Of a stretch of 64,000 bases of DNA, positions 49,619-64,000 are shown in pieces. The number at the start of each line of letters is the position of its first letter. The stretch's first letter is position 1. The DNA comes from Glaciecola amylolytica (GTDB taxonomy: Bacteria > Bacteroidota > Bacteroidia > Flavobacteriales_D > Crocinitomicaceae): contig CP034120.1 in NCBI GenBank assembly GCA_003856375.1, positions 2,666,001 through 2,730,000 on the forward strand, read 5' to 3'. The position numbers and the translations under genes are program-made. The notes under the pieces were generated by a model. It was given only the letters and a program-made list of their open reading frames with translations, was not told where the DNA came from and did no database searches.

Positions 49619-50527
49619 TTATTTTATTACGAATTTTTGCTGTCCCACAGCATTATTATCAAAATAAACACGAATAAAGTATGTTCCTTTGGAAACATCA
49701 TTTGTTTCGATCATTGAAACAGAAGAATTAGTAGTCAATTCCTTGCTGTTAATCACTTTTCCTGTCAAATCCAAAATCTGGATTTTAACAGCATTTTGTT
49801 GTGCTTTGATATATACCAAACCATCTGTTGAAGGATTCGGATAAACAGAGAACTCAACATCCTGCGTGTTCTCATTCAATCCTAAGAAACAGTCACATGT
49901 GTGTGTTCCAAGGTTTGACCAGGTATCTTTTGGCAAAGAGTCCCATTGCAATGTTACGATGAATGGATCCGGGCTCACTGAAACTCCTGCCTTAACAGAA
50001 GACTTACGAATCAATGTATGATTTTCAGTCCAGATTTTACCAGCTGAACCATCATAAGGAAACTGATCACTCCAACCATAAGCTGTAAGCATTGCAGCAT
50101 CACCGATTCTTCCCATCAAGTCGATTAATACATTGTTTTTGTACAACGCAATTGCATCGTTTCCGTTCATATAAGTCGGTGCAGGATAAGCTCCGTCTAA
50201 TTGATCAGCCAATAATTGCAATGCAGGAGAACAAGCCGGTGAATTCGGTTGTGTCGTTGTTTGTCCGTTTACAATTACAAAAGTAGAATATGGTGCGATT
50301 GTTCCTGTCAATGATGTGTTACCACCCGCATTTGATGTTGCCTGTCCATTTGAAAAACGGGAGATTTTGTATCCTGACAAGTTAATTGCAGTCCCTGTAG
50401 GATTATACAACTCGATTGCTTTGTCGTTTCCTGTTCCCTCCACGTATTCGGAGATAATAATTTCCGAACAGTCTTGTGCGTGCGCAACAGTAGACAACAT
50501 TCCTAAAAAAAGTAACGCTTTTTTCAT
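49619..50527 (-). CDS. lamin-tail-domain T9SS type A secreted protein
   Basis: A 302-residue protein with a signal peptide (1-17, ending VAHAQ). Residues about 20-150 are a lamin-tail domain (IIISEYVEGTGNDKAIELYN, GYKISRFSNGQ, TFVIVNGQ). In bacteria this domain is found attached to extracellular nucleases such as ExeM. Here it has no nuclease of its own. The tail from about 225 (VYPNPSTDGLVYIKAQQNAV, SKGTYFIRVYFDNN) is a type A T9SS signal. As the first gene of the locus it may bind extracellular nucleic acid or hold it close to the receptor. The binding role is inferred from domain and context only. Confidence 0.85.
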   Translation of the reverse strand: MKKALLFLGMLSTVAHAQDCSEIIISEYVEGTGNDKAIELYNPTGTAINLSGYKISRFSNGQATSNAGGNTSLTGTIAPYSTFVIVNGQTTTQPNSPACSPALQLLADQLDGAYPAPTYMNGNDAIALYKNNVLIDLMGRIGDAAMLTAYGWSDQFPYDGSAGKIWTENHTLIRKSSVKAGVSVSPDPFIVTLQWDSLPKDTWSNLGTHTCDCFLGLNENTQDVEFSVYPNPSTDGLVYIKAQQNAVKIQILDLTGKVINSKELTTNSSVSMIETNDVSKGTYFIRVYFDNNAVGQQKFVIK

Positions 50528-50585
50528 AACTTACTGATTATTTGAATTATAGATAAAATACTAAGTAAAGGTATAACAAATCCAC

Positions 50586-50640
50586 TCAGCGTGCTCGCTG
50601 AAAAATAGCACCAAATACTTCGGGAGAAGTCTCTGCTATT
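50586..50640 (-). promoter_or_regulatory. structured leader element upstream of the lamin-tail gene
   Basis: On the minus strand: a nested hairpin with outer stem AATAGCA/TGCTATT (50640-50634 with 50610-50604) and inner stem ACTTC/GAAGT around TCCC, then five T. A second hairpin CAGCG/CGCTG (50600-50587) follows. It lies 59 bases upstream of the ATG. The nested stem followed by T-run looks like an attenuator or a cis-acting RNA. The 401-base gap 50528-50928 otherwise holds only promoter elements. Confidence 0.45.
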
Positions 50641-50745
50641 ATGGAAAAGTTTCATTCTATTTCATTATACCAAGTGTTTTATTTCTGAATGGTTTCAGTC
50701 TGTGTAATTCACAGCATCAAGGAGAACATTCAAAAATTTCCGAGG

Positions 50746-50753
50746 CAAAGTTA
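50746..50753 (-). promoter_or_regulatory. candidate -7 element of the nucleic-acid locus
   Basis: TAACTTTG on the minus strand. If used, it gives a leader of roughly 215 bases that contains the hairpin element at 50586-50640. No well-spaced -33 TTG was seen. Confidence 0.4.
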
Positions 50754-50883
50754 AATCAAATTATCTTTTCTAACATTACTTAATTGTTAACAATCGACCA
50801 AGGTTATACACGTAGATTTCATTCAATCAAACTCATATTAAACAAGCTGTTAACTATTTTACACCACTTATCAATTATTCACT

Positions 50884-50912
50884 TTGTTCGGAATAGTTTT
50901 TGGTTATTTTTG
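50884..50912 (+). promoter_or_regulatory. promoter of the S9 peptidase gene
   Basis: TTG (50884-50886), an 18-base spacer and TATTTTTG (50905-50912), 16 bases before the ATG at 50929. It fits TTG-N17-23-TAnnTTTG. Confidence 0.65.
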
Positions 50913-50928
50913 CTCAAAACACCATTTT

Positions 50929-53091
50929 ATGAGAATTAAATTATTCATTTCCTTTATCTGTATTGTCTCTTTTTCATTCGCGCAAAACCTTAGTGTTGAA
51001 AGCATTTGGAAATCGGGAGAGTTCTATCCAAACCGAATTGACGGGTTCACCGCTTTAAGTGACGGGCAGTCTTTTACCAAAATTGTGGAAGAGGACGGGA
51101 AATATCTGTTGAAAAAATATCAATTCAAGGATTACAAAGGAGCAGGAACTACTTTGGTAAATCTTTCCACCATTCTTCTGGACGGAAAACCACTTGAATT
51201 TGACGACGTCAAACTAAGTAAAAGCGGAAACTGGCTGTTGATTCAAACAAATACAGCTTCGATTTACAGACACAGTTATTCCACCACTTACTACGTTTAT
51301 AATATCCAAAACAAAGAAACCAAAAAAGTACATGCTGCGGATGCTCCTCAAACCTTGGGAACATTTTCACCGGATGAAACGAAATTGGGATACATTGCGG
51401 GAAACAACCTGTTTGTATACGACCTGACGAATCATTCTTCCAAGCAAATTACTTTTGACGGAAAGCAAAACAGCATTATCAACGGTACGACGGATTGGGT
51501 TTATGAGGAAGAATTTTCGATTACTCAAGGTTTCGAGTGGTCGCCGGATTCAAAATACCTGGCATTCATGCGTTTTGATGAAACGGATGTCAAGCAATTC
51601 CAAATGGCGATGTACGGACATTTATATCCGGATCAGTATACATTCAAATACCCGAAAGCAGGAGAAGCTAATTCGAAAGTAACGTTTCACATTGCAAATG
51701 CTGCAACGGCAAGTATCAAACCGGTTGCTTTGGGAGAATATGAATATTTACCGCGCTTCCAATGGTCGCCGATTAAAAACGAAGTATTTGTTTCTACCTT
51801 GAATCGTCACCAAAACCACGTGAAATACCATTTGGTGAGCAATCCTGAAAATCCTTCCGACCGCATTTTCTACGAAGAGCAGTCAAGCACTTATCTGGAC
51901 GCTGATAATGTACTTTTACTAAAAGACGGCGCTTCCATGCTGCGCACTTCCGAAAAAGACGGATACAATCATATTTATCATTTGACTTTCTCCGGAACAC
52001 TCAGCCAGGTTACAAAAGGAAACTGGGATGTGATCGACTTGTACGGAATTGATGAGAAGAAAGGAACTGTTTTCTACTCTTCTTCTGAAAACGGTGCAAT
52101 CAACAAAACACTCTACTCCATTCATTGGAAAGGAACAGACAAAAAGATGTTGTCTGCAGCTGCCGGATACAACGATGCGGAATTTGCTCCGGGATTCAAT
52201 TATTTTATCCGTACAAGCTCATCTGCAAACACGGTTCCTACTTACAGTTTGTGTGACCGCACCGGAAAAGAATTCCAGGTATTGGAAGCGAACGCAGCGC
52301 TTCAGCAGAAATTCAACAGCATGAATCTGAGCAAAAAAGAGTTCCTGCAAGTAGATGGTGCTGCCGGAAAACTGAATGCATGGATTATGAAACCTGCAAA
52401 CTTCGACCCGAATAAAAAATACCCCGTATACTTTAATGTGTATTGCGGGCCGGGAAGCAACATGGTTACCAATGATTATGACGGACCAAACTACCTGTAT
52501 CACCAATTGTTGACTCAGAAGGGATACATCGTATTTTGTGTCGACACAAGAGGAACACAATTCCAGGGTGCAGAATTCAAAAAATCGACTTACCTGCAAC
52601 TAGGAAAGTTAGAAACCGAAGATTTGATCGCTGTGGCTAAAAACCTGCAAAAAGAATCATATGTGGATGCGAACAGAATCGGAATCATGGGATGGAGTTA
52701 CGGAGGTTTCATGACTTCTCTTGCCATGACAAAAGGAGCTGATGTATTCAAAATGGGAATTGCTGTGGCACCGGTTACAAACTGGCGTAATTACGACAAC
52801 ATCTACACCGAACGTTTCATGAGAACTCCTCAGGAAAATGCAAGCGGTTATGACGATAATTCTCCGGTTAACCATGCTGATAAACTGAAAGGTAAATTCC
52901 TTTTGATCCACGGTTCTGCAGATGATAACGTACATTATCAAAACACGATGGAATTCATCACAGCTTTGGTAAAAGCAAACAAACAATTCGACCTATTCAT
53001 TTACCCGAATAAAAATCACGGAATTTACGGTGGAAACACGCGTAATCACTTATACAATATGATGTTGGACTTTACGCTGAAAAACCTGTAA
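50929..53091 (+). CDS. S9B family dipeptidyl peptidase IV
   Basis: A 720-residue secreted serine peptidase. The signal peptide (MRIKLFISFICIVSFSFAQ) is followed by an eight-bladed propeller at about 40-455, with the substrate-anchoring TDWVYEEEF double-glutamate segment and WSPDSKYLAFMRFDE. The alpha/beta-hydrolase domain carries Ser590 (GWSYGGF), Asp665 (GSADDNVHYQN) and His697 (NHGIYGG), the DPP-IV triad. It removes X-Pro (or X-Ala) dipeptides in the periplasm, the last step in using proteins. Length fits the family. A longer frame starts inside the promoter, so ATG 50929 is used. Confidence 0.93.
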   Translation: MRIKLFISFICIVSFSFAQNLSVESIWKSGEFYPNRIDGFTALSDGQSFTKIVEEDGKYLLKKYQFKDYKGAGTTLVNLSTILLDGKPLEFDDVKLSKSGNWLLIQTNTASIYRHSYSTTYYVYNIQNKETKKVHAADAPQTLGTFSPDETKLGYIAGNNLFVYDLTNHSSKQITFDGKQNSIINGTTDWVYEEEFSITQGFEWSPDSKYLAFMRFDETDVKQFQMAMYGHLYPDQYTFKYPKAGEANSKVTFHIANAATASIKPVALGEYEYLPRFQWSPIKNEVFVSTLNRHQNHVKYHLVSNPENPSDRIFYEEQSSTYLDADNVLLLKDGASMLRTSEKDGYNHIYHLTFSGTLSQVTKGNWDVIDLYGIDEKKGTVFYSSSENGAINKTLYSIHWKGTDKKMLSAAAGYNDAEFAPGFNYFIRTSSSANTVPTYSLCDRTGKEFQVLEANAALQQKFNSMNLSKKEFLQVDGAAGKLNAWIMKPANFDPNKKYPVYFNVYCGPGSNMVTNDYDGPNYLYHQLLTQKGYIVFCVDTRGTQFQGAEFKKSTYLQLGKLETEDLIAVAKNLQKESYVDANRIGIMGWSYGGFMTSLAMTKGADVFKMGIAVAPVTNWRNYDNIYTERFMRTPQENASGYDDNSPVNHADKLKGKFLLIHGSADDNVHYQNTMEFITALVKANKQFDLFIYPNKNHGIYGGNTRNHLYNMMLDFTLKNL

Positions 53092-53095
53092 TTTT

Positions 53096-53380
53096 TTGCT
53101 TCAGGCAGTTGTCAAATCCATTATCTGGACACTTCTCAATTTCGGAGCTATTCAAGTAGTCAAATACGGCGATAGCTCCGATTGGAGTGAATTAAGCTTA
53201 AACCTGCTCATGATTCCCGTCGGAATGATCAATTGCGCCGTGTGTTTTCACTCATTCTACCGTCTACGGAAACCATCCAAAGAACAATTCATTTATTCCG
53301 GGTTTGGTTTACTGAATTCCGCTTACTTTTTCATCAGCTGGAATCAGCTGCACATTCTGTCGGGAGCAATGACCAGTTAG
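53096..53380 (+). CDS. small membrane protein (tentative)
   Basis: An open frame of 94 codons beginning with TTG five bases after the peptidase stop. It has no ATG until the middle. The translation has plausible membrane segments (LLMIPVGMINCAVCFHSFY and FIYSGFGLLNSAYFFISW) separated by a basic loop RLRKPSKEQ, a pattern unlikely by chance. I do not recognise a family. The non-ATG start and the small size keep confidence low. Confidence 0.45.
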   Translation: MLQAVVKSIIWTLLNFGAIQVVKYGDSSDWSELSLNLLMIPVGMINCAVCFHSFYRLRKPSKEQFIYSGFGLLNSAYFFISWNQLHILSGAMTS

Positions 53381-53569
53381 ACCACTTCAAAATCGTAAAA
53401 CGAACTCCTTCAACTTTTTAGCTTCATCCTGTTTTGTCACTTTTTTAAGTTACCAACAAACTATAGTCATTTTGCAAAAAAAGATTGCTTTAGGAGGATT
53501 ATTGTATTTAATTCTTTATTAATTTAGTGCGGCTAATAAAATTGTTAGATAATACTCTTATAGATCATC

Positions 53570-54859
53570 ATGAGCAAAGTTGCGAAAATCGAATTAGACG
53601 GGAAAGTATACGAATTCCCGGTTGTACAAGGTACAGAAAATGAATTGGCTATTGACATTTCAAAATTGCGCCAGGAAACTGGATACGTTACCCTGGATGC
53701 AGGTTATAAAAACACCGGAGCTACTTACAGCGCCATTACTTTTTTAGATGGTGAAGAAGGAATTCTTCGTTACCGTGGTTATCCGATCGAACAACTTGCA
53801 GAAAAAGCAAGTTTCATTGAAGTTGCTTATTTATTGATCTACGGAAATCTTCCAACTCAGGCTCAATTGGATGAATTCATTTCAAGTATTACCAAGCACA
53901 CATTGGTGCACGAAGACATGAAGCAATTCTTCGAAGCTTACCCGGCTCAGGCTCACCCGATGGGAGTTTTATCTGCAATGGTTTGTTCTCTTTCTACTTT
54001 CTACCCGGAATCATTGGATCCGAACAGAAGTGCTGAGAAAAAGAACAGAACAATTCTACGTTTGTTAGCAAAATTACCAACGCTTGCAGCTTGGTCATAC
54101 AAAAACTCCATGCGTCATCCGTTCATGTATCCTAAAAATGAATACGATTACGTAAAGAATTTCTTGTACATGATGTTCGCAATGCCAACTGAAGATTACA
54201 AAGTTGATCCGGTTGTTGTAGATGCATTGAATAAATTATTGATCCTGCATGCAGATCACGAACAAAACTGTTCTACTTCAACAGTTCGTATCGTTGGTTC
54301 TTCTCAGGCAAACCTTTACGCTTCCATTTCAGCAGGTATTTCTGCACTTTGGGGACCACTTCACGGTGGAGCTAACCAGGCAGTAATCGAAATGCTGGAG
54401 AAAATCCACAACGATGGTGGTGACGTAGACAAATGGGTATTGAAAGCGAAAGACAAAGATGATCCGTTCCGTTTGATGGGATTCGGACACCGTGTTTACA
54501 AAAACTTCGATCCTCGCGCTACAATCATCAAGAAAGCTGCTGATGATGTATTGGAGAAATTGAAAATCAATGATCCATTATTGGATATCGCTAAAAAATT
54601 AGAAAAAGTAGCATTGGAAGATGAGTACTTCAAATCAAGAAACTTATATCCAAACGTAGATTTCTACTCTGGAATCATCTACAAAGCTCTTGGAATTCCT
54701 TCCGAAATGTTTACAGTAATGTTTGCATTGGGTCGTCTTCCGGGATGGATTGCACAATGGAAAGAAATGTCAGAAGGTGGAGAGCCAATCGGTCGTCCAA
54801 GACAAATCTACACAGGTGCTGTTACCAGAGATTACGTTTCGATTTCAGACAGAGGATAA
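53570..54859 (+). CDS. gltA: citrate synthase
   Basis: A 429-residue hexameric-type citrate synthase that condenses oxaloacetate and acetyl-CoA at the entry to the TCA cycle. The catalytic residues match E. coli GltA: His265 in GPLHGGAN, His307 in GFGHRVYKNFDPRA and Asp364 in VDFYSG. The first 45 residues form the beta-rich N-terminal domain of type II enzymes (VAKIELDGKVYEFPVVQGTE). The single gene stands between a 189-base leader, in which I see no certain promoter, and a 47-base palindromic terminator. Confidence 0.96.
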   Translation: MSKVAKIELDGKVYEFPVVQGTENELAIDISKLRQETGYVTLDAGYKNTGATYSAITFLDGEEGILRYRGYPIEQLAEKASFIEVAYLLIYGNLPTQAQLDEFISSITKHTLVHEDMKQFFEAYPAQAHPMGVLSAMVCSLSTFYPESLDPNRSAEKKNRTILRLLAKLPTLAAWSYKNSMRHPFMYPKNEYDYVKNFLYMMFAMPTEDYKVDPVVVDALNKLLILHADHEQNCSTSTVRIVGSSQANLYASISAGISALWGPLHGGANQAVIEMLEKIHNDGGDVDKWVLKAKDKDDPFRLMGFGHRVYKNFDPRATIIKKAADDVLEKLKINDPLLDIAKKLEKVALEDEYFKSRNLYPNVDFYSGIIYKALGIPSEMFTVMFALGRLPGWIAQWKEMSEGGEPIGRPRQIYTGAVTRDYVSISDRG

Positions 54860-54872
54860 TAATTCATTATTA

Positions 54873-54919
54873 CAGATAAAAAAAGCGGATGATTTAAAAT
54901 CATCCGCTTTTTTTATCTG
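54873..54919. terminator. near-loopless palindromic terminator 6 (after gltA)
   Basis: A 47-base inverted repeat around a single central A (54896). Arms are CAGATAAAAAAAGCGGATGA-TTT and complement. It serves gltA and the convergent DUF4198 gene. Its core lacks the GGGCGAA of terminators 1, 2, 3 and 5. Confidence 0.85.
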
Positions 54920-54925
54920 CCTTTT

Positions 54926-55639
54926 TTATTTTTTCACCTCCACACAGTAAGTCACACAATTCCAAATTGCTTTGTATTCCTTTCCGTTGTGCGTGTCTTT
55001 TTTCTCTTCCGTAACAAAACTCTCAAGCATGTATCTTCCGTCGGTAAACGGAACAAATGACGCATGTCCGGCTTCATTCACTTCGAAATCTTTTGTCCAG
55101 CCAACCGGCGGCTGTACTGTCAACTTAACATCCTTCGTTCCTTTTTGAAAGAAAATGTCCAAACCAAGCTCTTGCTTCACTTTGAATTCCTTCGTCAACT
55201 GGACCTGAATTGCCAGATCTGTTGCCTTTGCAAGATTTGAAGCACCGGTAGCCGCATCATTATCCACCACCACTGAAGCCAGTGCATAATAATGAATCAA
55301 TGATTCGTAATAAACATCAGCCACCACATGATCAATTGAAAAAACATAAACTCCTTTTGAAGCAGGTGTAAATTCCGTTAAAAAGCAATTACTTTCTGCT
55401 TTTGTTTTCACAAGCGTTTTTGTACCGTCGGGTGCTGTTACAAACAACTGAAAACCTTCCAGATCACTGAACCAATTTTTGGTAGAATCCCGTTCATTCT
55501 CACTGTATTCTCCGAAGTACACTCTGACCGGTTGAGCTTTTCCTTTTTTCCCCTGGGAACTTGTTTCAATCCAAAGCGCATGTCCGAATACATTTCCCTG
55601 AATGACAAACAACATGACTAAAAAACCTAATACTTTCAT
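54926..55639 (-). CDS. DUF4198-type secreted protein
   Basis: A 237-residue protein with a signal peptide MKVLGFLVMLFVIQGNVFG cleaved just before HALWIE. The mature N-terminal histidine and the beta-sandwich that follows (QPVRVYFGEYSENERD, GTKTLVKTKAESNCFLTEFT, GVYVFSIDHVVADVYYE) are features of DUF4198, a periplasmic family often linked to nickel or cobalt uptake. The C-terminus contains two cysteines in WNCVTYCVEVKK. A GTG 30 bases upstream gives a longer frame without a proper leader. It lies downstream of the B12-controlled propeller gene on the same strand, but a terminator separates them. Confidence 0.72.
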   Translation of the reverse strand: MKVLGFLVMLFVIQGNVFGHALWIETSSQGKKGKAQPVRVYFGEYSENERDSTKNWFSDLEGFQLFVTAPDGTKTLVKTKAESNCFLTEFTPASKGVYVFSIDHVVADVYYESLIHYYALASVVVDNDAATGASNLAKATDLAIQVQLTKEFKVKQELGLDIFFQKGTKDVKLTVQPPVGWTKDFEVNEAGHASFVPFTDGRYMLESFVTEEKKDTHNGKEYKAIWNCVTYCVEVKK

Positions 55640-55714
55640 CTTTCCTAATTTTGACCGCAAAGTTGCCACGATACTCCCATTATTTCAATACCTGATTAAA
55701 GGGTATTTTCACAA

Positions 55715-55744
55715 AAAAAGGTCACCGTTTCCAGTGACCTTTTT
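55715..55744 (-). terminator. terminator after the B12-controlled gene
   Basis: AAAAAGGTCAC/GTGACCTTTTT with an eight-base loop, 25 bases after the stop of the propeller gene and, on the minus strand, followed by T-run. Confidence 0.75.
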
Positions 55745-55769
55745 CAGTAGAATAGTGGATTTAGGTATA

Positions 55770-57716
55770 TTACTCTACAATTACTTTTGTAAGCAGATTA
55801 TTCAATTTTACATAGTATAATCCGGATTGCAGGTCAGAAAGGCTGATCGTTGTTTCGGTTGAAGCAACCATCACTTTTCGAACTACCGCACCTTGTGTAT
55901 TTACTAATTCCAATTCGCGCCCTACCAGTTCGGCAGAAACGTTTACCGTTAACACATCAGAAGCTGGATTCGGGTAAACCTGAACGAATGCAGTGCTTAA
56001 ATCTTCCAGACCTGCGCTTGAACAAGAAACCACAACTGTTTGCGCTTCATTGGAACTGTTTCCGTTTCCGTCTGCAAAAACCCAATTAATGGTATAAGTT
56101 CCCGGTATTGCGTATGAAAGCGGATTGCTTGTTGTTCCCGTAACTGTTCCGGTACAGTTATCCGTTGCTGTAGGAGCCGTTACGACGTCATTACAAGCAA
56201 TATTCAAAGTTGGAAGAGGAGTTGTAACAGGATTTTCAGAATCCGTCACGATGATATGCTGATCTACAGTAATGGAATTTCCGTTCCCGTCATTGAACGT
56301 CCACGTAATAGTCGTCATACCGATTGTTGTAATCGGGAAAGCAGTTGTTGTCGTTCCGGTAACTGTTCCCGCACAATTGTCGGTTGTTGTCGGAGCAACA
56401 GGTGTAATGCTGCAAGAGCCGGTTACATTACTTAAAACAGGTGTTGCAGGATCTTCAGCATCATTGATTGTGACAGTCTGAGTCTGCATAATCGTTCCGT
56501 TTGCATTGGTAAAAGTCCAGGTAACGGTGAATGTTCCCTGAGCAGTGTAAGACACAGGATCTGTTGTTGTAGCCGTAACAGCTCCGTTATCTGCAGTTGG
56601 AGCAGTCAAAGTAGCACTGCATTCATCCGAAACAGCCGGAAGCGATGCCAGATCCGGAACAGGAATCGGACCGTTTGGAGCCGGGTACGTTTTCAAAACA
56701 CATTTATTCGGAATGGCACACCCCGGCAAAGTACCGGATTCGATAACCGTAAATGTCGTACCATTCACTACTTCGAAATATGCCGGAGCAACATAGGTAT
56801 GTGCAGAAGCAACTACAAAATCTCCTGTTGACGGATCGATATCAAAAGCTCTTCCGTATCCAAATGTTCCGTAAGTTCCTGTAGTTCCTGCCAATGTACT
56901 TGTATAAACCGGTGTTAACGGTAATGTAGGTGGATTCGTAATATCGTATTGATACATTTTTTTATCTGAAAGTGTCCAGAAATAAAGCTTGTTATTATTA
57001 TAGCGAAGCAACTTTATATTGAAGCCCACATTCACGGGTGTACCCAAAGCATCATTATTCAATACATCGATCGAAACAAGGTTTGTTCCTCCGATCACCC
57101 ATAATTTCCCCTGATTATCATAGGTAATTCCAGCAATTGAACCAACTCCCGGATCAAACTTTGCAACAACCGCATTGGTTACTGTGTCAATTTTCACCAA
57201 CTGAGTTCCCTGATCCAAATACATGAATCCTTTCGCAAACTGCATATGAGAACAATAAGAGGAAATCTCATTATTCGGCTCCGTAACGGGAGTCAAGGTA
57301 TTGTTCTGAAGATCAATCAACGAAACAACTCCTCCCTGAGCATAGCAAGCATAGGCTTTTGTAGCACTTGCAACTCCTAAAGTCTGAGGTGCGTGTGGAA
57401 ATGTGTGAATTTCCGTCATTGAAGGATAATTCACGATCGTGATTCTTCCCGCTCCGTTGGGCTTTTCTGCAAGAATTGCTTTGTTTCCCGCAATGACATA
57501 GTCTTGCAGCACATTAAAGCCTGCCGTACCGTTAGCAGCCTGATACCTTCCTGTGGAGTTTGTTGCAGGACTGAATGTTGTGTTACGGACAAAAATATCT
57601 CCGTTCGTACTCCCGTAATTTCCTTCCGCAATGAGTTCTAAACGAAATGTTGTTTGAGCTTGTAGTGTAGTGGTTAAGATTAAAAAGCCAAGTACCAATT
57701 TGATTTTTTTCATCAT
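55770..57716 (-). CDS. cobalamin-riboswitch-controlled T9SS beta-propeller (BtuG/DUF5074-like)
   Basis: A 648-residue secreted protein. Signal peptide 1-20. Residues about 22-340 form a propeller of YVTN/DUF5074 type: LELIAEGNYGSTNGDIFVRN, VVSLIDLQNNTLTPVTEPNN, GITYDNQGKLWVIGGTNLVS. DUF5074-type propellers include BtuG of Bacteroides, which captures vitamin B12 at the cell surface. Residues about 355-565 are two or three HYR-like beta-domains (ATDNCTGTVTGTTSNPLS), and the tail from about 575 (VYPNPASDVLTVNVSAELVG, LQSGLYYVKLNNL) is a T9SS type A signal. So a probable B12-binding protein is anchored by T9SS rather than by lipid as in BtuG. No btuB is next to it. Confidence 0.82.
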   Translation of the reverse strand: MMKKIKLVLGFLILTTTLQAQTTFRLELIAEGNYGSTNGDIFVRNTTFSPATNSTGRYQAANGTAGFNVLQDYVIAGNKAILAEKPNGAGRITIVNYPSMTEIHTFPHAPQTLGVASATKAYACYAQGGVVSLIDLQNNTLTPVTEPNNEISSYCSHMQFAKGFMYLDQGTQLVKIDTVTNAVVAKFDPGVGSIAGITYDNQGKLWVIGGTNLVSIDVLNNDALGTPVNVGFNIKLLRYNNNKLYFWTLSDKKMYQYDITNPPTLPLTPVYTSTLAGTTGTYGTFGYGRAFDIDPSTGDFVVASAHTYVAPAYFEVVNGTTFTVIESGTLPGCAIPNKCVLKTYPAPNGPIPVPDLASLPAVSDECSATLTAPTADNGAVTATTTDPVSYTAQGTFTVTWTFTNANGTIMQTQTVTINDAEDPATPVLSNVTGSCSITPVAPTTTDNCAGTVTGTTTTAFPITTIGMTTITWTFNDGNGNSITVDQHIIVTDSENPVTTPLPTLNIACNDVVTAPTATDNCTGTVTGTTSNPLSYAIPGTYTINWVFADGNGNSSNEAQTVVVSCSSAGLEDLSTAFVQVYPNPASDVLTVNVSAELVGRELELVNTQGAVVRKVMVASTETTISLSDLQSGLYYVKLNNLLTKVIVE

Positions 57717-57734
57717 TTGTTGTATTTATTAAAA

Positions 57735-57800
57735 CGATGAAAAAGTAACGGCCACAGCCAATGATCTGACTTGACAATTTGCTCCTTCACTTTTTCACCG
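57735..57800 (-). promoter_or_regulatory. candidate expression-platform stem of the riboswitch
   Basis: In the RNA, CGGTGAAAAAGT (57800-57789) pairs with ACTTTTTCATCG (57746-57735), with one G-U pair and about 42 bases between. It ends 18 bases before the ATG. It could hide the start region or be alternatively paired with the aptamer. Confidence 0.4.
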
Positions 57801-57812
57801 AAAGTTACAGTT

Positions 57813-57997
57813 CATGCAAATTGGCAGGTCTCCTGGCTAAGTCCTTCAATTCACCTTCCCATCCTGCTCTCATTTGTTATTGAGATTACGGACAGTGGCA
57901 TATCGAATTAAATATGGACTCTTACAGTTGCGGGAACAGCTCCGGATTTACACCGGATTCCCTTTTAATCCCGTAAAACGGGAACCGAATCGCGGTG
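57813..57997 (-). promoter_or_regulatory. cobalamin (B12) riboswitch
   Basis: Read on the minus strand it shows the class features in order. AAAGGGAATCCGGTGTAAAT is at 57966-57947, and GCTGTTCCCGCAACTGTAAG follows, the conserved core with the GCAACTGTAA stretch. A variable arm comes next, with inverted segments around 57870, then the B12 box GCCAGGAGACCTGCC at 57837-57823. Binding of adenosyl- or methylcobalamin would repress the propeller gene. Only the minus strand carries the aptamer, so it acts on the gene ending at 55770. Confidence 0.9.
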
Positions 57998-58026
57998 CAA
58001 AAGTAACCCGAATTCTCTGGTTTCAA
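57998..58026 (-). promoter_or_regulatory. promoter of the riboswitch transcript
   Basis: TTG (58026-58024), 18-base spacer and TACTTTTG (58005-57998) on the minus strand, directly in front of the aptamer. Confidence 0.65.
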
Positions 58027-58174
58027 AATTTACCTCCATATTATTTGACGATGCGGATAAATTCAATTTCAAATAATACTCTGTTTAAATAAGCTTAAAC
58101 AAAATCAATTTAGTCAAATTTCAATCTTATCTGAAGCATAACCTACTCATAAACAAGCTGCTAAATCTATAGTA

Positions 58175-58182
58175 TACATTTG
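58175..58182 (+). promoter_or_regulatory. -7 element of the T9SS cargo gene
   Basis: TACATTTG, 36 bases before the ATG at 58219. No TTG at the usual spacing. Confidence 0.4.
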
Positions 58183-58218
58183 TAGTATTACAACTCAAAC
58201 TCTTCATTCTCTGGCGCT

Positions 58219-59265
58219 ATGAAAAAAATTCATGCTTTCTTTAAATGCCTGCCCCTAATTCTTTTCATCCTTTTTACAAGTAAAAATGTTGCTGTTGCCC
58301 AGTGTCCGGATGGGACAATCGGCGTATCAGGTGCCGGATGTGGTTGTTTAAGTGGTTGTAATCTAACGAGTTTAGGAGGACCCAATTGCTCCCCGTCTGT
58401 TGGTGGAGATTGCTCCGGCGGACAAAGATCCATGTCGGAAGATATCATTGTTCCTGCCGGATGCACTTACACCGTAACTGCAACGATACGAAACCGGGCC
58501 GGAGGCTGCACTTCATCAGGTGCAGATAGTGGTGATAAAATGAAAGTAGATATTTCAGGTGGAGGTAAAACTTTTCAAAGCGGATCAGGAAATGCTACTA
58601 TAAACGACAGCTATACATTGGCTGGTCCGGGAACAATTACCGTATCCGGAACGGCAAACAGAGCCGATGAAATCATTACGTATACCACCAGTTCAAGCGG
58701 AGCTACCTGCGTCAACTGTATGAGTGTGCTTCCGGTCGAATTGGTTTCTTTTGACGCCAGATCTGAAGGCAACGCAGTTGCTTGTTCCTGGTCGACACAA
58801 TCCGAAAAAAACTGCGATTTCTTTACCGTGGAAAGAAGTGCCGACGGAATTCATTTCGAATTACTGGGTTATATGAAAGGCGCAGGAAATACTTCGAATG
58901 CGATGAAATACAAATTGTATGATTACGACCCGTATTTTTCAATTACGAGCTACTACAGATTGCTGCAAACCGATTTCAACGGCCAAACACGTTACCTTGA
59001 AGTAAAAACAGTAAAAGCAGAAAGAACCAATGAACTGCAGGTTTTCCCGAATCCGTCAAAAGGAACTATTCAAATCAGCGGAGATTTCGAAACATTACTG
59101 AACTCAAAACTGTACGATCTTTCCGGAAGAGAATTATCCATCGACCGTACGGATTTACAGGAAAACTCTTCCATGATCATCTCTGATCTTCCTGTCGGAA
59201 TCTACAATCTGATGTATTTTGACAACGAGAAAACAGTTTCGGAGCGAATTATTATTACTCCGTAA
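58219..59265 (+). CDS. cysteine-rich T9SS type A secreted protein
   Basis: A 348-residue protein with a signal peptide (about 1-27, ending VAVAQ). Residues 28-90 are rich in Cys and Gly (CGCLSGCNLTSLGGPNCS), followed by a beta-sandwich (DKMKVDISGGGKTFQSGSGN) to about 175. The segment LPVELVSFDARSEGNAVACS leads into a fibronectin-like linker module (SEKNCDFFTVERSADGIHFE) that often precedes type A sorting domains. The tail from about 272 (ELQVFPNPSKGTIQISGDFE, LPVGIYNLMYFDNE) is that domain. Its function is unknown; the many Cys suggest a disulfide-stabilised extracellular module. Its end overlaps the convergent methyltransferase gene by 11 bases. Confidence 0.82.
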   Translation: MKKIHAFFKCLPLILFILFTSKNVAVAQCPDGTIGVSGAGCGCLSGCNLTSLGGPNCSPSVGGDCSGGQRSMSEDIIVPAGCTYTVTATIRNRAGGCTSSGADSGDKMKVDISGGGKTFQSGSGNATINDSYTLAGPGTITVSGTANRADEIITYTTSSSGATCVNCMSVLPVELVSFDARSEGNAVACSWSTQSEKNCDFFTVERSADGIHFELLGYMKGAGNTSNAMKYKLYDYDPYFSITSYYRLLQTDFNGQTRYLEVKTVKAERTNELQVFPNPSKGTIQISGDFETLLNSKLYDLSGRELSIDRTDLQENSSMIISDLPVGIYNLMYFDNEKTVSERIIITP

Positions 59266-60409
59266 CAGCTGTTTCCGCCGTTCCTTTTTTCGAACCTTCG
59301 TAAATAGAATACTTTCGGAAAGAGCATTCCAGATCACCGTTAAACAATTTGTACTTTTTGTCCGGTTTCAATGCCAGGTATTTGAATCCGGCTTCGCTGG
59401 AAGAGATAATAAAACAAGTATAACCCAACAGGCGGTGCTTCATAATACTTCCCAAAGTTCCGTACAATTCTTCCACATCGGTTTCCAATCGTTCTCCGTA
59501 TGGCGGATTTGAAATCAAAACAGCCGGTCCTTCCGGGAATGGAAATTCATCTACCGAAGCGTTGTGAACATCAATAAATCTGCCGAAAGAAAAACCTCTC
59601 AGGTTTCTTTTGGTCTTCATTACCATTTGCGGGTCGATATCTCCACCGATTAATGTACAAGGAAGTTCCTTCACAACTTTGTTTGCACTTGTATGAATTT
59701 CGTCCCACAGTTTTGCATCAAAATTCCACATGTTTTTGAATGCATAGTGGTTTCTTTCGATATTGGAAGGAATTCCGGCAGCCAGTAATGCAGCTTCGAT
59801 CAACAAAGTTCCCGAGCCGCAAAAAGGATCGATCAAAGTTGTTTTCTTATCCCATGCCGTCATTCGCAAAAGTGCTGCAGCAACTACTTCATTCAACGGA
59901 GCATCTCCTGTGGATTGTCTGTAACCACGTTGAAAAAGTGGCAAACCACTCGTGTTCACAGAAATAACGCCCTCGTTTTCACGAACATATAAATCGATTA
60001 CAATCTGAGGTGTTTTTACATTGATATCCGGTCGTTCTCCCTTTACATCTCTGAAATGATCCACTATCGCATCTTTTATCAGTAGAAACGGAAATTGAGA
60101 ATGGTTGAAAATCGTTGAATTCACAGCTCCTTTTACTGCAAATGTTTTCTTCACATCAAAAAGAGAAGACCAGTTGATCTTTTTTGCTTCATCATAAAGA
60201 TCCTTTTCTGTTTTCACAGCAAATTTTCTCAACTCAACCAAAACGGAAATAGCACAGCGAATATGCAGGTTCAGGAAATAAACATCCTTCCACTCACCTT
60301 CGATCTGAACAGCTCTATTAAGCTTCGTACATTCAGAATACCCCAATTCATTTAGTTCTTCCGCAAGTACATCTTCTAATCCGTAAAATGTTTTGAGTAC
60401 AATTTTCAT
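59255..60409 (-). CDS. THUMP-domain RNA methyltransferase (RlmL N-half type)
   Basis: A 384-residue SAM-dependent methyltransferase. An N-terminal ferredoxin-like/THUMP RNA-binding part covers about 1-155 (VLKTFYGLEDVLAEELNELG). The linker VNTSGLPLFQRGYRQSTGDA leads into the Rossmann domain with IDPFCGSGTLLIEAALLAAG (about 190-210) and the N6-adenine/N2-guanine catalytic motif NPPYGERL near 305. This is the RlmL/YpsC class that makes N2-methylguanosine in 23S rRNA. The RlmK second half of the E. coli fusion is absent, as is usual outside gammaproteobacteria. Confidence 0.9.
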   Translation of the reverse strand: MKIVLKTFYGLEDVLAEELNELGYSECTKLNRAVQIEGEWKDVYFLNLHIRCAISVLVELRKFAVKTEKDLYDEAKKINWSSLFDVKKTFAVKGAVNSTIFNHSQFPFLLIKDAIVDHFRDVKGERPDINVKTPQIVIDLYVRENEGVISVNTSGLPLFQRGYRQSTGDAPLNEVVAAALLRMTAWDKKTTLIDPFCGSGTLLIEAALLAAGIPSNIERNHYAFKNMWNFDAKLWDEIHTSANKVVKELPCTLIGGDIDPQMVMKTKRNLRGFSFGRFIDVHNASVDEFPFPEGPAVLISNPPYGERLETDVEELYGTLGSIMKHRLLGYTCFIISSSEAGFKYLALKPDKKYKLFNGDLECSFRKYSIYEGSKKGTAETAVTE

Positions 60410-60439
60410 AAAGCGAATTCAATTATTTATATAAGAGCA

Positions 60440-60447
60440 CAAAAGTA
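60440..60447 (-). promoter_or_regulatory. -7 element of the RNA methyltransferase gene
   Basis: TACTTTTG on the minus strand, 30 bases before the ATG whose complement ends at 60409. Confidence 0.4.
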
Positions 60448-60533
60448 GACAAAAGCTAAGAGCTTTTCTAAATAGAACAGAAATAAGGTAAAACACTATT
60501 CTTTTAGGTAAAAAAAAATTAATTTTGATTTTC

Positions 60534-62822
60534 ATGCATTTAGCGAAGCAAATAACTTTTACATTAATCCTAAGCGTACTCCCCTTTTTCATTAAAGCTC
60601 AGGGAGTTGGTGTTGTATTAAGTGGCGGAGGAGCATCCGGTTTCGCTCATATCGGAGTTCTCAAAGCGCTCGAAGAAAATAATATACCTATCAATTATAT
60701 TACCGGAACTTCTGCCGGAGCTCTTGTGGGAGCAATGTACGCCAGCGGCTATTCTCCTCAGGAAATTGAAGATTATGTACTTAGCAATAAATTTCAGCTG
60801 ATGTCTAACGGTCAGATTGAACAACGCTATGAATTTTTATTGCGGGAAGACAATGAAAATGCTTCCGGAATGAGTTTTTCATTCTCTTTGGATAGTATTT
60901 TCAGTAAATCTCTTCCAACGAATTTTATAAGACCGGAATTACTCGATTTCGAAATGCTTCGTTTATTCGGAGCAACCGGTGCTTCGTCTTCGTATAATTT
61001 CGACAGTCTTTTTGTTCCGTTTCGCTGCGTTGCCAGTGATATTGTAGCGAAGAAAAGTGTGGTATTTTCAAACGGCTATCTGAACGAAGCAATCAGAGCC
61101 TCCATGACCTTTCCGTTTTATGTCAACCCGATCCGGATCAACGGAGTGTTGTATTTCGACGGAGGTTTGTACAACAATTTCCCCGCAGATGTGATGTACA
61201 ATAGTTTTCCTGCTGATTTTATTATCGGAAGCAACGTTTCATACAATGCTGCAGCTCCGAAAGAAGACGATTTGATCAGTCAGCTCACCAACATGCTCGT
61301 TTCGCACACGGCTTTTGAAATCCCCTGCGAATCCGGAATCATTATTGAACCCAAACCCAATATCAGCACCTTCGATTTTGAAGATGTAGATGAAGCAATC
61401 AACGCGGGCTACAATGCCACCATTTTGATGATGGATAGTATTAAAAATGCGACTGATGACAGAATTTCAACCGAAGAATTGAATAAAAAACGTTCGCATT
61501 TCAAAGAAAGACTGAATTCTCTGGTGATTTCTCAGGTAAATACCATCAACAAAAAAGGGCTTGATGAAAGCTATGTCCGAAAGTCCATTCTAAAAAACAA
61601 CAAGGGGGAAAAAATTTCCGGAATCCGTTTCAAACGTCGTTATTTCAGAACGTATGCAACTCCTCAGATCAAATATTTGTATCCGACACTCGATCTTCAG
61701 GAAGATTCTACTTACAGTCTGAATATCAAAGTAACGGAATCAAAACCTTTCCGTCTGGATATCGGAGGTATTGTGAGTACGCGGGCCATTAATACCGGAT
61801 TCATTCAACTCAACTACATGCGTCTGGACCGCTTTGCAAGTACCATTCAGGTAGGCGGATATTTCGGGAAGTTTTACAATTCCGGAAGAGCAAACATCGA
61901 CCTGCATTTCCCCTCCTATTATCCCATTTCGGCTAGTGTTTACGGGGTTATTAACCGCTGGGATTACTTCAAAAGTTTCACCACTTTCTTCGATGACGAA
62001 AAACCCTCATTCCTGGTTCAAAACGAAGCATACATCGGAGGAGGAATAAAATTGCCTTTGTTCAACAATTCTAAATTCAGTGTGGATTACAGGCATTTTG
62101 AAACACAGGATCGCTATTATCAGTTGCCGGATTTCACCAACAAAGACACTACCGACAGAACCATATTGTATGGTAACTCCTTAATGGTCACGCTGGAACA
62201 CAATTCATTGAACCGGAAACAATGGGCATCATCGGGAACTTTGGCACTTTTCAAAGCAATTTATAGTGGAGCCAAAGAACACAGTGTGGCCGGATCAACC
62301 TCTTTGGAAAAATATGATTACCGAAACGGGCATCATTGGTTCAACATTCGTGGAGAAATTCAGAATTTTCCTCTGAGTACCAAATATTTCTCATTCGGAG
62401 TTCACGGTTTGGCCAGTATTACCAATCTTTCACTCCTGAAAAATTACACCGCAACGTTGCTGAATATGAATGCTTTTCAGCCCCTGCCCGATTTGCAAAC
62501 GTATTTCTTCTCGGATTATCGTTCTCCTCAGTATATCGGAGGTGGAATCAATATTATTTTTTCCCTGCGTAAAAACATTGATATCCGGGCAGATGGTTAC
62601 TGGTATCAGCCTTTCATTTCCATTACCAAAAACGATGACGGAACCTTTGGTTACTCCAAGCCATTTAAGGGAGAATCTCAGGTTGTATCACTGTCTGCAA
62701 TTTATCATTCGCCCCTCGGCCCTCTTCGTGCTTCATTGAATTACTTTCCGAAGCAAAAATCGCCTCTGGCATTTCAATTTACATACGGATTTATCATTTT
62801 CCACGAACGAGCGTTTCGTTAG
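60534..62822 (+). CDS. patatin-like phospholipase fused to an Omp85-type barrel
   Basis: A 762-residue outer-membrane protein. The signal peptide ends near FIKAQ. The patatin domain (about 24-320) has the oxyanion loop GGGASG at 31-36, nucleophile Ser60 in GTSAG, and Asp209 in DGG, so the Ser-Asp dyad is intact. A POTRA-like linker (about 330-420, LDLQEDSTYSLNIKVTESKP) leads to a 16-strand barrel of the BamA/Omp85 surface-antigen type ending FTYGFIIFHERAFR. The arrangement resembles PlpD of Pseudomonas and other type Vd proteins, in which the barrel carries the lipase to the outside. ATG 60534 is chosen over an earlier TTG. Confidence 0.9.
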   Translation: MHLAKQITFTLILSVLPFFIKAQGVGVVLSGGGASGFAHIGVLKALEENNIPINYITGTSAGALVGAMYASGYSPQEIEDYVLSNKFQLMSNGQIEQRYEFLLREDNENASGMSFSFSLDSIFSKSLPTNFIRPELLDFEMLRLFGATGASSSYNFDSLFVPFRCVASDIVAKKSVVFSNGYLNEAIRASMTFPFYVNPIRINGVLYFDGGLYNNFPADVMYNSFPADFIIGSNVSYNAAAPKEDDLISQLTNMLVSHTAFEIPCESGIIIEPKPNISTFDFEDVDEAINAGYNATILMMDSIKNATDDRISTEELNKKRSHFKERLNSLVISQVNTINKKGLDESYVRKSILKNNKGEKISGIRFKRRYFRTYATPQIKYLYPTLDLQEDSTYSLNIKVTESKPFRLDIGGIVSTRAINTGFIQLNYMRLDRFASTIQVGGYFGKFYNSGRANIDLHFPSYYPISASVYGVINRWDYFKSFTTFFDDEKPSFLVQNEAYIGGGIKLPLFNNSKFSVDYRHFETQDRYYQLPDFTNKDTTDRTILYGNSLMVTLEHNSLNRKQWASSGTLALFKAIYSGAKEHSVAGSTSLEKYDYRNGHHWFNIRGEIQNFPLSTKYFSFGVHGLASITNLSLLKNYTATLLNMNAFQPLPDLQTYFFSDYRSPQYIGGGINIIFSLRKNIDIRADGYWYQPFISITKNDDGTFGYSKPFKGESQVVSLSAIYHSPLGPLRASLNYFPKQKSPLAFQFTYGFIIFHERAFR

Positions 62823-62861
62823 TAAGATCAGAACTATTAAATTCGCATCAAATTCGAGAAA

Positions 62862-63929
62862 ATGACAAAAATCATCTGTGGTATACAGCAAATGGGAATT
62901 GGTGTTCCCAATGTGCAATCAATTTGGAAATGGTATCGTGAACACTTTGGTGTGGACGTAAGAATTTTTGAAGAAGCTGCTGAAGCCCCTTTGATGACAA
63001 GATATACCGGTGGTGTTATTCATTCCAGAACGGCAACTTTGGCACTTTCCATGGAAAGCGGCGGCGGATTTGAGATCTGGCAATTTACATCACGTCCAAC
63101 GGAAAAAAGCACAGAACCAATCATTCTGGGTGATTTCGGTTTATATGCTTGCCGGATCAAATCCAGAGATGTAAAAGCGACCCACGCTTTCCTGACTAAA
63201 AAAGGAGCGAAAGTCTTATCCGAACCACAACAATTACCCAACGGCAGTTTTCACTTCCTGGTAGAAGATCCGAACGGAAATCTGTTCGATATCGTGGAAG
63301 GATCCGGATGGTTCATGGACACTAAATTTGAAGGAAAGACAGGAGGTGTTGCCGGTTCCATGATCGGTGTCAGCTCCATCGAAAAAGCATTGCCCTTGTA
63401 TCAGACTATTTTGGGATACGACCAGATCGTTTACGACGTAACGGATACTTTTGACGCTTTCAATCAGGTTCCAAACGGAAATCACAAAGTAAGACGTGTT
63501 TTACTTCAGCATTCCGAAGACAGAAAAGGGCCGTTTGCAAAATTGCTTGGTCCTACACAAATTGAATTGGTACAGGCTGTAGAACGAACAGATGCAAAAT
63601 CCATTTTCAAAAACCGTTTCTGGGGCGACTGGGGCTTCATTCACTTGTGTTTCGATGTTCAGGGAATGGATGATTTGCAGAAGGAATGTGAAAAGCTTGG
63701 CTTCCCGTTCACTGTCGATTCCGGAAAAACCTTTGATATGGGAGAAGCCGGCGGAAGATTCAGCTACATTGAAGATCCGGACGGAACGTGGATTGAATTC
63801 GTTGAAACTCATAAAGTTCCGGTAATGAAAAAGTTAGGATGGTATATTCATCTTAAAAATAAAAAGCCGGGAGCATTCCTTCCCAACTGGATGCTTAAAG
63901 CAATGAGATTTAACCGTGTAAAAAATTGA
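62862..63929 (+). CDS. VOC-superfamily protein with two glyoxalase-like modules
   Basis: A 355-residue cytoplasmic protein with two vicinal-oxygen-chelate halves. The first half opens QMGIGVPNVQSIWKWYREHF and ends HFLVEDPNGNLFDIVEGSGW; the second begins GSMIGVSSIEKALPLYQTIL and ends RFSYIEDPDGTWIEFVETHK. The metal-ligand positions in each half look preserved (the DPxGxxxE segments). Members include dioxygenases, glyoxalases and isomerases. The length is near that of 4-hydroxyphenylpyruvate dioxygenase, but its signature motifs are not seen. Substrate unknown. An 11-base direct repeat GATTTAACCGT spans the end of the gene (63907 and 63928). Confidence 0.8.
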   Translation: MTKIICGIQQMGIGVPNVQSIWKWYREHFGVDVRIFEEAAEAPLMTRYTGGVIHSRTATLALSMESGGGFEIWQFTSRPTEKSTEPIILGDFGLYACRIKSRDVKATHAFLTKKGAKVLSEPQQLPNGSFHFLVEDPNGNLFDIVEGSGWFMDTKFEGKTGGVAGSMIGVSSIEKALPLYQTILGYDQIVYDVTDTFDAFNQVPNGNHKVRRVLLQHSEDRKGPFAKLLGPTQIELVQAVERTDAKSIFKNRFWGDWGFIHLCFDVQGMDDLQKECEKLGFPFTVDSGKTFDMGEAGGRFSYIEDPDGTWIEFVETHKVPVMKKLGWYIHLKNKKPGAFLPNWMLKAMRFNRVKN

Positions 63930-63982
63930 TTTAACCGTAGTTCCCATTGATTATGATAGTCATTCATTTCATATTTAAATCG

Positions 63983-63990
63983 TAACTTTG
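63983..63990 (+). promoter_or_regulatory. -7 element for a gene beyond the window
   Basis: TAACTTTG fits TAnnTTTG ten bases before the window ends. The gene it serves is not visible. Confidence 0.35.
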
Positions 63991-64000
63991 GGTCAAATTG

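Follow-up and report, generated by a model that had tools for sequence, protein, structure and literature searches.

The window examined here is a stretch of 64,000 nt from Glaciecola amylolytica (Crocinitomicaceae; contig CP034120.1, positions 2,666,001 to 2,730,000), a species whose whole genome lies in this one contig of 4.6 Mb. On its minus strand, a cobalamin riboswitch heads a gene for a 648-residue protein in which a predicted β-propeller of the BtuG type is followed by HYR-like domains and by a type A tail of the type IX secretion system (T9SS). The gene is an extra paralogue beside a lipoprotein BtuG encoded ~1.4 Mb away, in a riboswitch-headed operon that also holds the receptor BtuB. 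We propose, with a probability of roughly 0.6, that its product is an auxiliary, T9SS-exported corrinoid catcher for times of B12 scarcity that cooperates in trans with the remote BtuB-BtuG.

Riboswitch linkage and the standalone clade

An earlier note, made from the letters of the window alone, had described a minus-strand promoter of the form TTG-N18-TACTTTTG and a cobalamin aptamer ahead of this gene, and both are present (Table 1). Bacteroidota promoters follow a consensus of their own, which was used for the assignment. The aptamer is the only match in the window above an Rfam gathering cut-off (31.5 bits for RF00174), and its P1 stem pairs poorly in the RF00174 alignment. At the 5′ edge of the aptamer, in the same place as in the window, 14 of the 22 leaders of standalone genes carry TAnnTTTG as -7 element; seven have TAnnTTCG instead (by eye) and one (L079) has neither form. 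The hairpin between the window aptamer and the start codon, a possible expression platform, folds with -23.2 kcal/mol and reaches z-scores of -4.24 over 72 nt, -1.17 in a fold of 103 nt and -3.0 for the 89-nt leader, and z values of -2 or lower were obtained for 11 of the 22 leaders.

A cobalamin riboswitch lies immediately 5′ of the standalone propeller gene in 24 of the 24 loci examined, namely the window, G006, G013, L061-L079 (where L063 is G007 and L079 is G028), and L194 and L195, which were found later and stand outside the alignment; L138 (G075), which ends like L103 and is probably a duplicate, is not among them. These loci are not independent samples; they span Crocinitomicaceae, Flavobacteriaceae (Flavobacterium), Chitinophagaceae and others. 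The scan that returned L061-L079 used protein patterns alone, and each of its 21 loci carries a cobalamin riboswitch: in 19 (L061-L079) it stands directly before the propeller gene, and in the other two (L080 of Profundicola and L081 of Chryseobacterium) it heads an operon of receptor and propeller. Linkage of riboswitch and gene is conserved, and regulation itself is predicted from the sequence. Inspection by eye of the next genes at 19 homolog loci revealed no shared partner beyond close relatives. A further standalone propeller match, G452:C31:22745-23719, contains one in-frame TAA that may reflect decay or an assembly error, and was left out of all riboswitch counts.

Among 68 propellers placed in one tree, the 20 standalone proteins form one group with a support of 99 in the Shimodaira-Hasegawa-like approximate likelihood ratio test (SH-aLRT), apart from the other BtuG-like proteins. 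The tree was built by a quick method, with SH-aLRT as its sole support measure, and has several long branches. Its label 'operonic' means 'not standalone' only, gene context having been read for nine of the ten other T9SS rows (all except L157) and for six of the 38 lipid rows (L048, L100, L101, L140, L142 and L156).

Propeller, tail and gene architecture

The signal peptide (read by eye), propeller, HYR-like domains and T9SS tail named in the earlier note are all present, and its comparison of the propeller with BtuG was borne out by profiles and by the predicted structure; the Pfam family that it proposed as a check was recovered only in part. PF16819 (DUF5074) gave no reported match in the window protein, and in hmmscan it exceeded the cut-off of 27.2 bits in four of 21 relatives (L067 36.6, L069 33.2, L071 35.2 and L079 66.0), L070 (26.0) and L068 (22.9) staying below it. 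The ortholog in G013 (L015:5812-7755) scored 41.0 bits for DUF5074 in the whole-genome search and was not listed by hmmscan, the filters of these searches being different. A five-row profile (A1) matched solved BtuG chains with an E value of 2.1e-11, and hhalign joined the profile of the standalone proteins to that of 29 non-standalone BtuG-like proteins with a probability of 99.9 (E 4.8e-33), which places the group, as judged by profiles, among the homologs of BtuG (DUF5074). Pairwise BLASTP of the window protein against the BtuG of the same genome gave nothing (best E 3.3), and the two are joined by profiles and structure only.

An AlphaFold2 model of the propeller, built from the 20-row alignment A2 of standalone proteins, reached a predicted local distance difference test (pLDDT) score of 89.1 and a predicted template modelling (pTM) score of 0.86. 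Foldseek placed BtuG in rows 1 to 15 of its results for this model, with 8okv first (E 3.5e-18), and BtuK1 in rows 16 to 18; 3dsm, one of the first 15, was counted as BtuG following PMC6143338. VIA-align likewise gave Z values of 28.7-30.1 for BtuG (30.1 over 300 residues); BtuK1 came next with 27.4, and no other entry exceeded 25.7. The modelled fold is a BtuG-type β-propeller; a common fold alone is no proof of B12 binding. E31, G32, N33, G35, N38 and D40 are invariant throughout A2 (20 of 20 rows). The motif that contains them, EGN[FY]G..N.D, aligns with part of Asn54-Thr64 of BtuG2 if, as we infer, chain numbering equals that of the paper; this is one of two loops described in PMC10404256 as gripping B12 'like a pair of pliers', and the same paper counts 13 hydrogen bonds to B12. 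Net charge did not usefully separate the groups (means of -8 in standalone and -11 in lipoprotein propellers, with wide ranges).

Beyond the propeller, the window protein matches HYR_4C in three stretches (43.5 bits, cut-off 27) and both models of the T9SS tail, PF18962 (46.8 bits, cut-off 27) and TIGR04183 (37.8 bits, cut-off 23). No HYR match at E 0.01 was obtained for the Flavobacterium homologs L072 and L073 or for L079. The PF18962 tail is over cut-off in all 22 standalone proteins scanned, window included; the tails of L194 and L195, outside these 22, were matched by a custom hidden Markov model (HMM) only, and among five standalone homologs scanned with TIGR04183 L066 was missed. The window protein has no lipobox, there being no Cys ahead of the EGN motif. 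In A2, the strict lipobox pattern [LVI][ASTVI][GAS]C occurs in 0 of 20 rows, a Cys in the hydrophobic signal stretch in nine and a loose lipobox pattern in seven.

Table 1. Features of the standalone propeller locus (positions in the window)
Feature	Position	Strand	Details
Bacteroidota-type promoter	57998..58026	-	TTG (-33) 58026-58024, 18-base spacer, TACTTTTG (-7) 58005-57998
Cobalamin riboswitch aptamer, RF00174	57806..58004	-	110.9 bits, E 6.1e-27, model 1-189 of 189
Terminator-like hairpin with U tract, possible expression platform	57731..57800	-	Hairpin 57800-57735; between aptamer and ATG
Gene for 648-residue T9SS-exported BtuG-like propeller protein	55770..57716	-	Open reading frame; orthologs 74-76% in G006, G007, G013
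Signal peptide, ~residues 1-20	57657..57716	-	Type I, no Cys or lipobox; by eye
BtuG-like β-propeller, ~residues 22-345	56682..57653	-	AlphaFold2 model, Foldseek, VIA
EGN[FY]G..N.D motif, residues 31-40	57597..57626	-	Densest run of invariant columns
HYR-like Ig domains, ~residues 350-563, spacer or stalk	56028..56669	-	HYR_4C, three stretches
T9SS type A C-terminal sorting domain, residues 580-646	55779..55979	-	TIGR04183, PF18962
Intrinsic terminator 3′ of gene	55713..55744	-	AAAAAGGTCAC..GTGACCTTTTTTT, read in sequence

Receptor operons and the question of the anchor

The search for further B12-riboswitch genes that the earlier note had advised returned four cobalamin riboswitches in this genome, located ahead of the window gene, of metE, of a gene for an 81-residue Cys-rich protein and of the distant operon (L007). 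This operon encodes, in order, a DUF4465 (BtuJ) protein with a T9SS tail (L007:8594-9562; Pfam-checked in L004), a TonB receptor nearest to BtuB1 (E 4.8e-56 to 8blw_A), a BtuG with the lipobox ...FTVAC whose nearest solved relative is 8blw_B (E 6.9e-67), and a T9SS-tailed protein of 326 residues that matches Pfam and solved structures in its tail only. MetH and methylmalonyl-CoA mutase are encoded in the genome along with the riboswitched metE, and the presence of a T9SS was read from SprA (SprA_N, 516.9 bits), the one Por/Gld gene searched for.

The same note had inferred that this lineage swapped the lipid anchor of BtuG for T9SS, which would make B12 capture dependent on the Por machinery. 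Such an exchange is found elsewhere: a T9SS-tailed BtuG directly follows the receptor in Profundicola (L080) and in three other families, and eight of the eight operons L168-L175 carry a riboswitch, a TonB receptor (Plug above cut-off) and then a BtuG-like protein with a type A tail; in L175 a lipoprotein BtuG intervenes. In the controls L176-L178, BtuG is a lipoprotein in three of three. The ten T9SS propellers of the tree that are not standalone fall among the lipoproteins; lipid and T9SS anchors changed at least five times over the tree, counted as the fewest possible, and its starred branches force at least three changes for these ten rows. For the window gene we regard an anchor swap as highly improbable. 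A lipoprotein BtuG still stands in the btuB operon of this genome and the window protein falls in another tree group, so that the swap is already contradicted here unless the BtuG of L007 is non-functional. The exchange beside the receptor thus happened in other lineages and not at the window locus.

Standalone gene and second propeller also occur together in other genomes. All 17 of the other standalone-bearing genomes hold a second DUF5074 gene above cut-off; its protein has a lipobox in 15 by pattern and in G045 by eye, the start codon being uncertain in G052, and in 13 of the 17 (all except G046, G047, G049 and G053) a same-strand riboswitch lies upstream, no more than ~4 kb away. In Flavobacterium subsaxonicum, lipoprotein BtuG and T9SS BtuG stand in tandem after the receptor (L175:4518-6857) and a standalone form is present as well (L073).

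Similar to the window protein, the BtuJ of the distant operon combines a cobalamin riboswitch with a T9SS tail, whereas it has a jelly-roll fold and is the first gene of a btuB operon. DUF4465 proteins are named BtuJ in PMC12751083 and PMC13398666, and the latter reports that the Fluviicola taffensis DUF4465 protein F2I9N3 binds B12; searching PMC13398666 for T9SS terms found none. Among 22 riboswitch-headed DUF4465 (BtuJ-like) genes, chosen by eye from 34 riboswitch loci (including L019-L046) and Pfam-checked in L004 only, 19 have a T9SS tail according to an HMM derived from the tails of the standalone proteins, one encodes a lipoprotein (L032) and two are cut by the end of the locus.

Other members of these regulons were noted in passing. 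The riboswitch at L005:8911-9102 (G000:C1:2181910-2182101) precedes the gene of the 81-residue Cys-rich protein (end of the reading frame ~8500; CWC-like by eye), which is followed by a thioesterase gene and then by a VIT1-like transporter (by eye); the order of riboswitch and thioesterase recurs in L025 and L041. The 326-residue T9SS-tailed protein follows BtuG both at L007:4638-5618 and at L175:3531-4511. Another cobalamin riboswitch (L169:363-580) precedes two genes that look by eye like class I ribonucleotide reductase and lie immediately ahead of the operon for B12 uptake.

Around the window gene itself, no receptor or btuB was found among the open reading frames at 50000-64000, in agreement with the earlier note. 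The terminator directly 3′ of the propeller gene makes the gene probably monocistronic. The downstream gene for 247 residues (54926-55669), a conceivable operon partner, was dismissed as such: this terminator intervenes, no Pfam match exceeds its cut-off, and the G007 locus has no counterpart among open reading frames of at least 120 residues. The divergent neighbour (58219-59265, plus strand) encodes a T9SS-tailed protein of 348 residues, and a similar one adjoins the propeller gene in G007. Further away, at 49619-50527 on the minus strand, lies a gene for a Lamin-tail-domain protein with a T9SS type A tail.

Proposed function and competing explanations

Compared with BtuG (BtuG1-3 of B. thetaiotaomicron, DUF5074/PF16819), the window protein is alike in propeller fold, profile homology, cobalamin riboswitch and outward direction, and differs in its standalone gene, its type I signal peptide with a type A tail for T9SS where BtuG has a lipobox, its short N-terminal linker, its HYR domains and its separate tree group. 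Since it has neither a lipobox nor a btuB neighbour, we do not class it as BtuG itself; it has a riboswitch upstream and a type A tail, and it probably works like BtuG. BtuK1 (9s6c), described in PMC12751083 as a B12-binding propeller lipoprotein, shares the fold and membership of a B12 regulon, whereas it is a lipoprotein of a btu operon and scores structurally below BtuG. The T9SS BtuGs of receptor operons (Profundicola L080, L168-L174 and F. subsaxonicum L175) have propeller, type A tail and riboswitch in common with the window gene and differ from it in standing directly after the receptor (in L175, after the lipoprotein BtuG) and in falling among lipoprotein BtuGs in the tree.

On the proposed view, the window gene would respond to B12, and its product would bind B12, be fixed at the surface and hand its ligand on. 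When the leader riboswitch binds B12, transcription would end at the hairpin ahead of the ATG; when B12 is scarce, the propeller gene would be expressed. The signal peptide would take the protein across the inner membrane and the T9SS across the outer one. There, the type A tail would be cleaved and the protein attached to lipopolysaccharide at the surface, or some of it released. Corrinoids could then be caught by the BtuG-like propeller at a distance from the membrane, with the HYR domains as a stalk whose length varies, and would be handed on to BtuB-BtuG, which is encoded elsewhere. That supernatant containing BtuG2 delivers B12 in trans (PMC6143338) speaks for this scheme, in which the distant receptor, one of the options in the earlier note, is the probable partner.

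Several observations weigh against this proposal. The clade is sparsely distributed: counting its own genome each time, the standalone gene was found in four of 14 genomes of the genus and in at least 11 of 100 of the family (E 1e-20 or better), and across the phylum at least two of 395 genomes had standalone-level scores and at least 40 of 395 had matches at E 0.001; in the family and phylum searches no more than 5 or 20 candidates were scored for each genome. DUF5074 is missed in most standalone members. A search of 22 leaders for a hairpin common to all was only partly successful, the hairpin being weak or absent in half. By eye, the pocket residue Trp194 of BtuG2 sits in an insertion missing from the standalone group, and the region of Trp272 has no Trp in this group. 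The linker to the EGN motif measures 10-13 residues in 20 standalone rows, cleavage before Q being assumed, whereas 26 lipoproteins have 18-31 residues from their lipid Cys onwards; with so short a linker the lid complex with BtuB may form differently, and to judge from sequence a hinged BtuB-BtuG lid may not apply to the standalone form. Finally, BtuG2-His made in E. coli gave no growth rescue, and its authors considered that lipidation may matter (PMC6143338).

Alternatively, the T9SS might free the protein as a diffusible, haemophore-like corrinoid carrier, possibly shared among cells, which we consider unlikely. The window protein is without a lipid anchor, and T9SS cargo of type A may be either released or bound to the surface; type A tails are, however, usually tied to attachment to anionic lipopolysaccharide (A-LPS). 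Published experiments bear on both sides: in PMC6143338, supernatant with native BtuG2 delivers B12 in trans and feeds a btuG2 mutant, whereas the E. coli-made protein did not deliver B12 and coculture with the parent strain did not rescue the mutant, and according to PMC13374852 added BtuG sequesters extracellular corrinoid in coculture. A related idea, possible yet doubtful, is that the whole clade serves specifically as a corrinophore released by T9SS. Such a B12-regulated derivative of BtuG, either diffusible or on a long stalk, would collect corrinoids outside the cell and return them to BtuB-BtuG; natural secretion of BtuG was raised in PMC6143338 and judged unlikely for Bacteroides BtuG2.

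It would be more surprising still if the propeller bound something other than corrinoids, such as cobalt or a host or particle surface, and were merely switched on at B12 scarcity like metE, and we hold this to be improbable. HYR domains occur in adhesins, the riboswitched metE illustrates that riboswitch genes need not bind B12, and the two pocket tryptophans are not kept; against this, the model resembles BtuG and BtuK1 more closely than it does the remaining propellers in the lists, and the loop motif is kept. We therefore retain an auxiliary corrinoid catcher as the preferred reading.

No literature linking DUF5074 with type IX secretion was found among open-licence papers, and the one paper found there on cobalamin riboswitches and type IX secretion reports, for Flavobacterium psychrophilum, such a riboswitch ahead of a TonB receptor. 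Pairs of lipoprotein and T9SS BtuG offer a natural test of the need for lipidation in hand-off to BtuB, left open in PMC6143338. Bacteroidota place predicted B12-catching propellers outside the cell in two ways, by lipid anchor and by T9SS, sometimes within one genome. If the proposal is true, micronutrient capture would be added to the known range of T9SS cargo.

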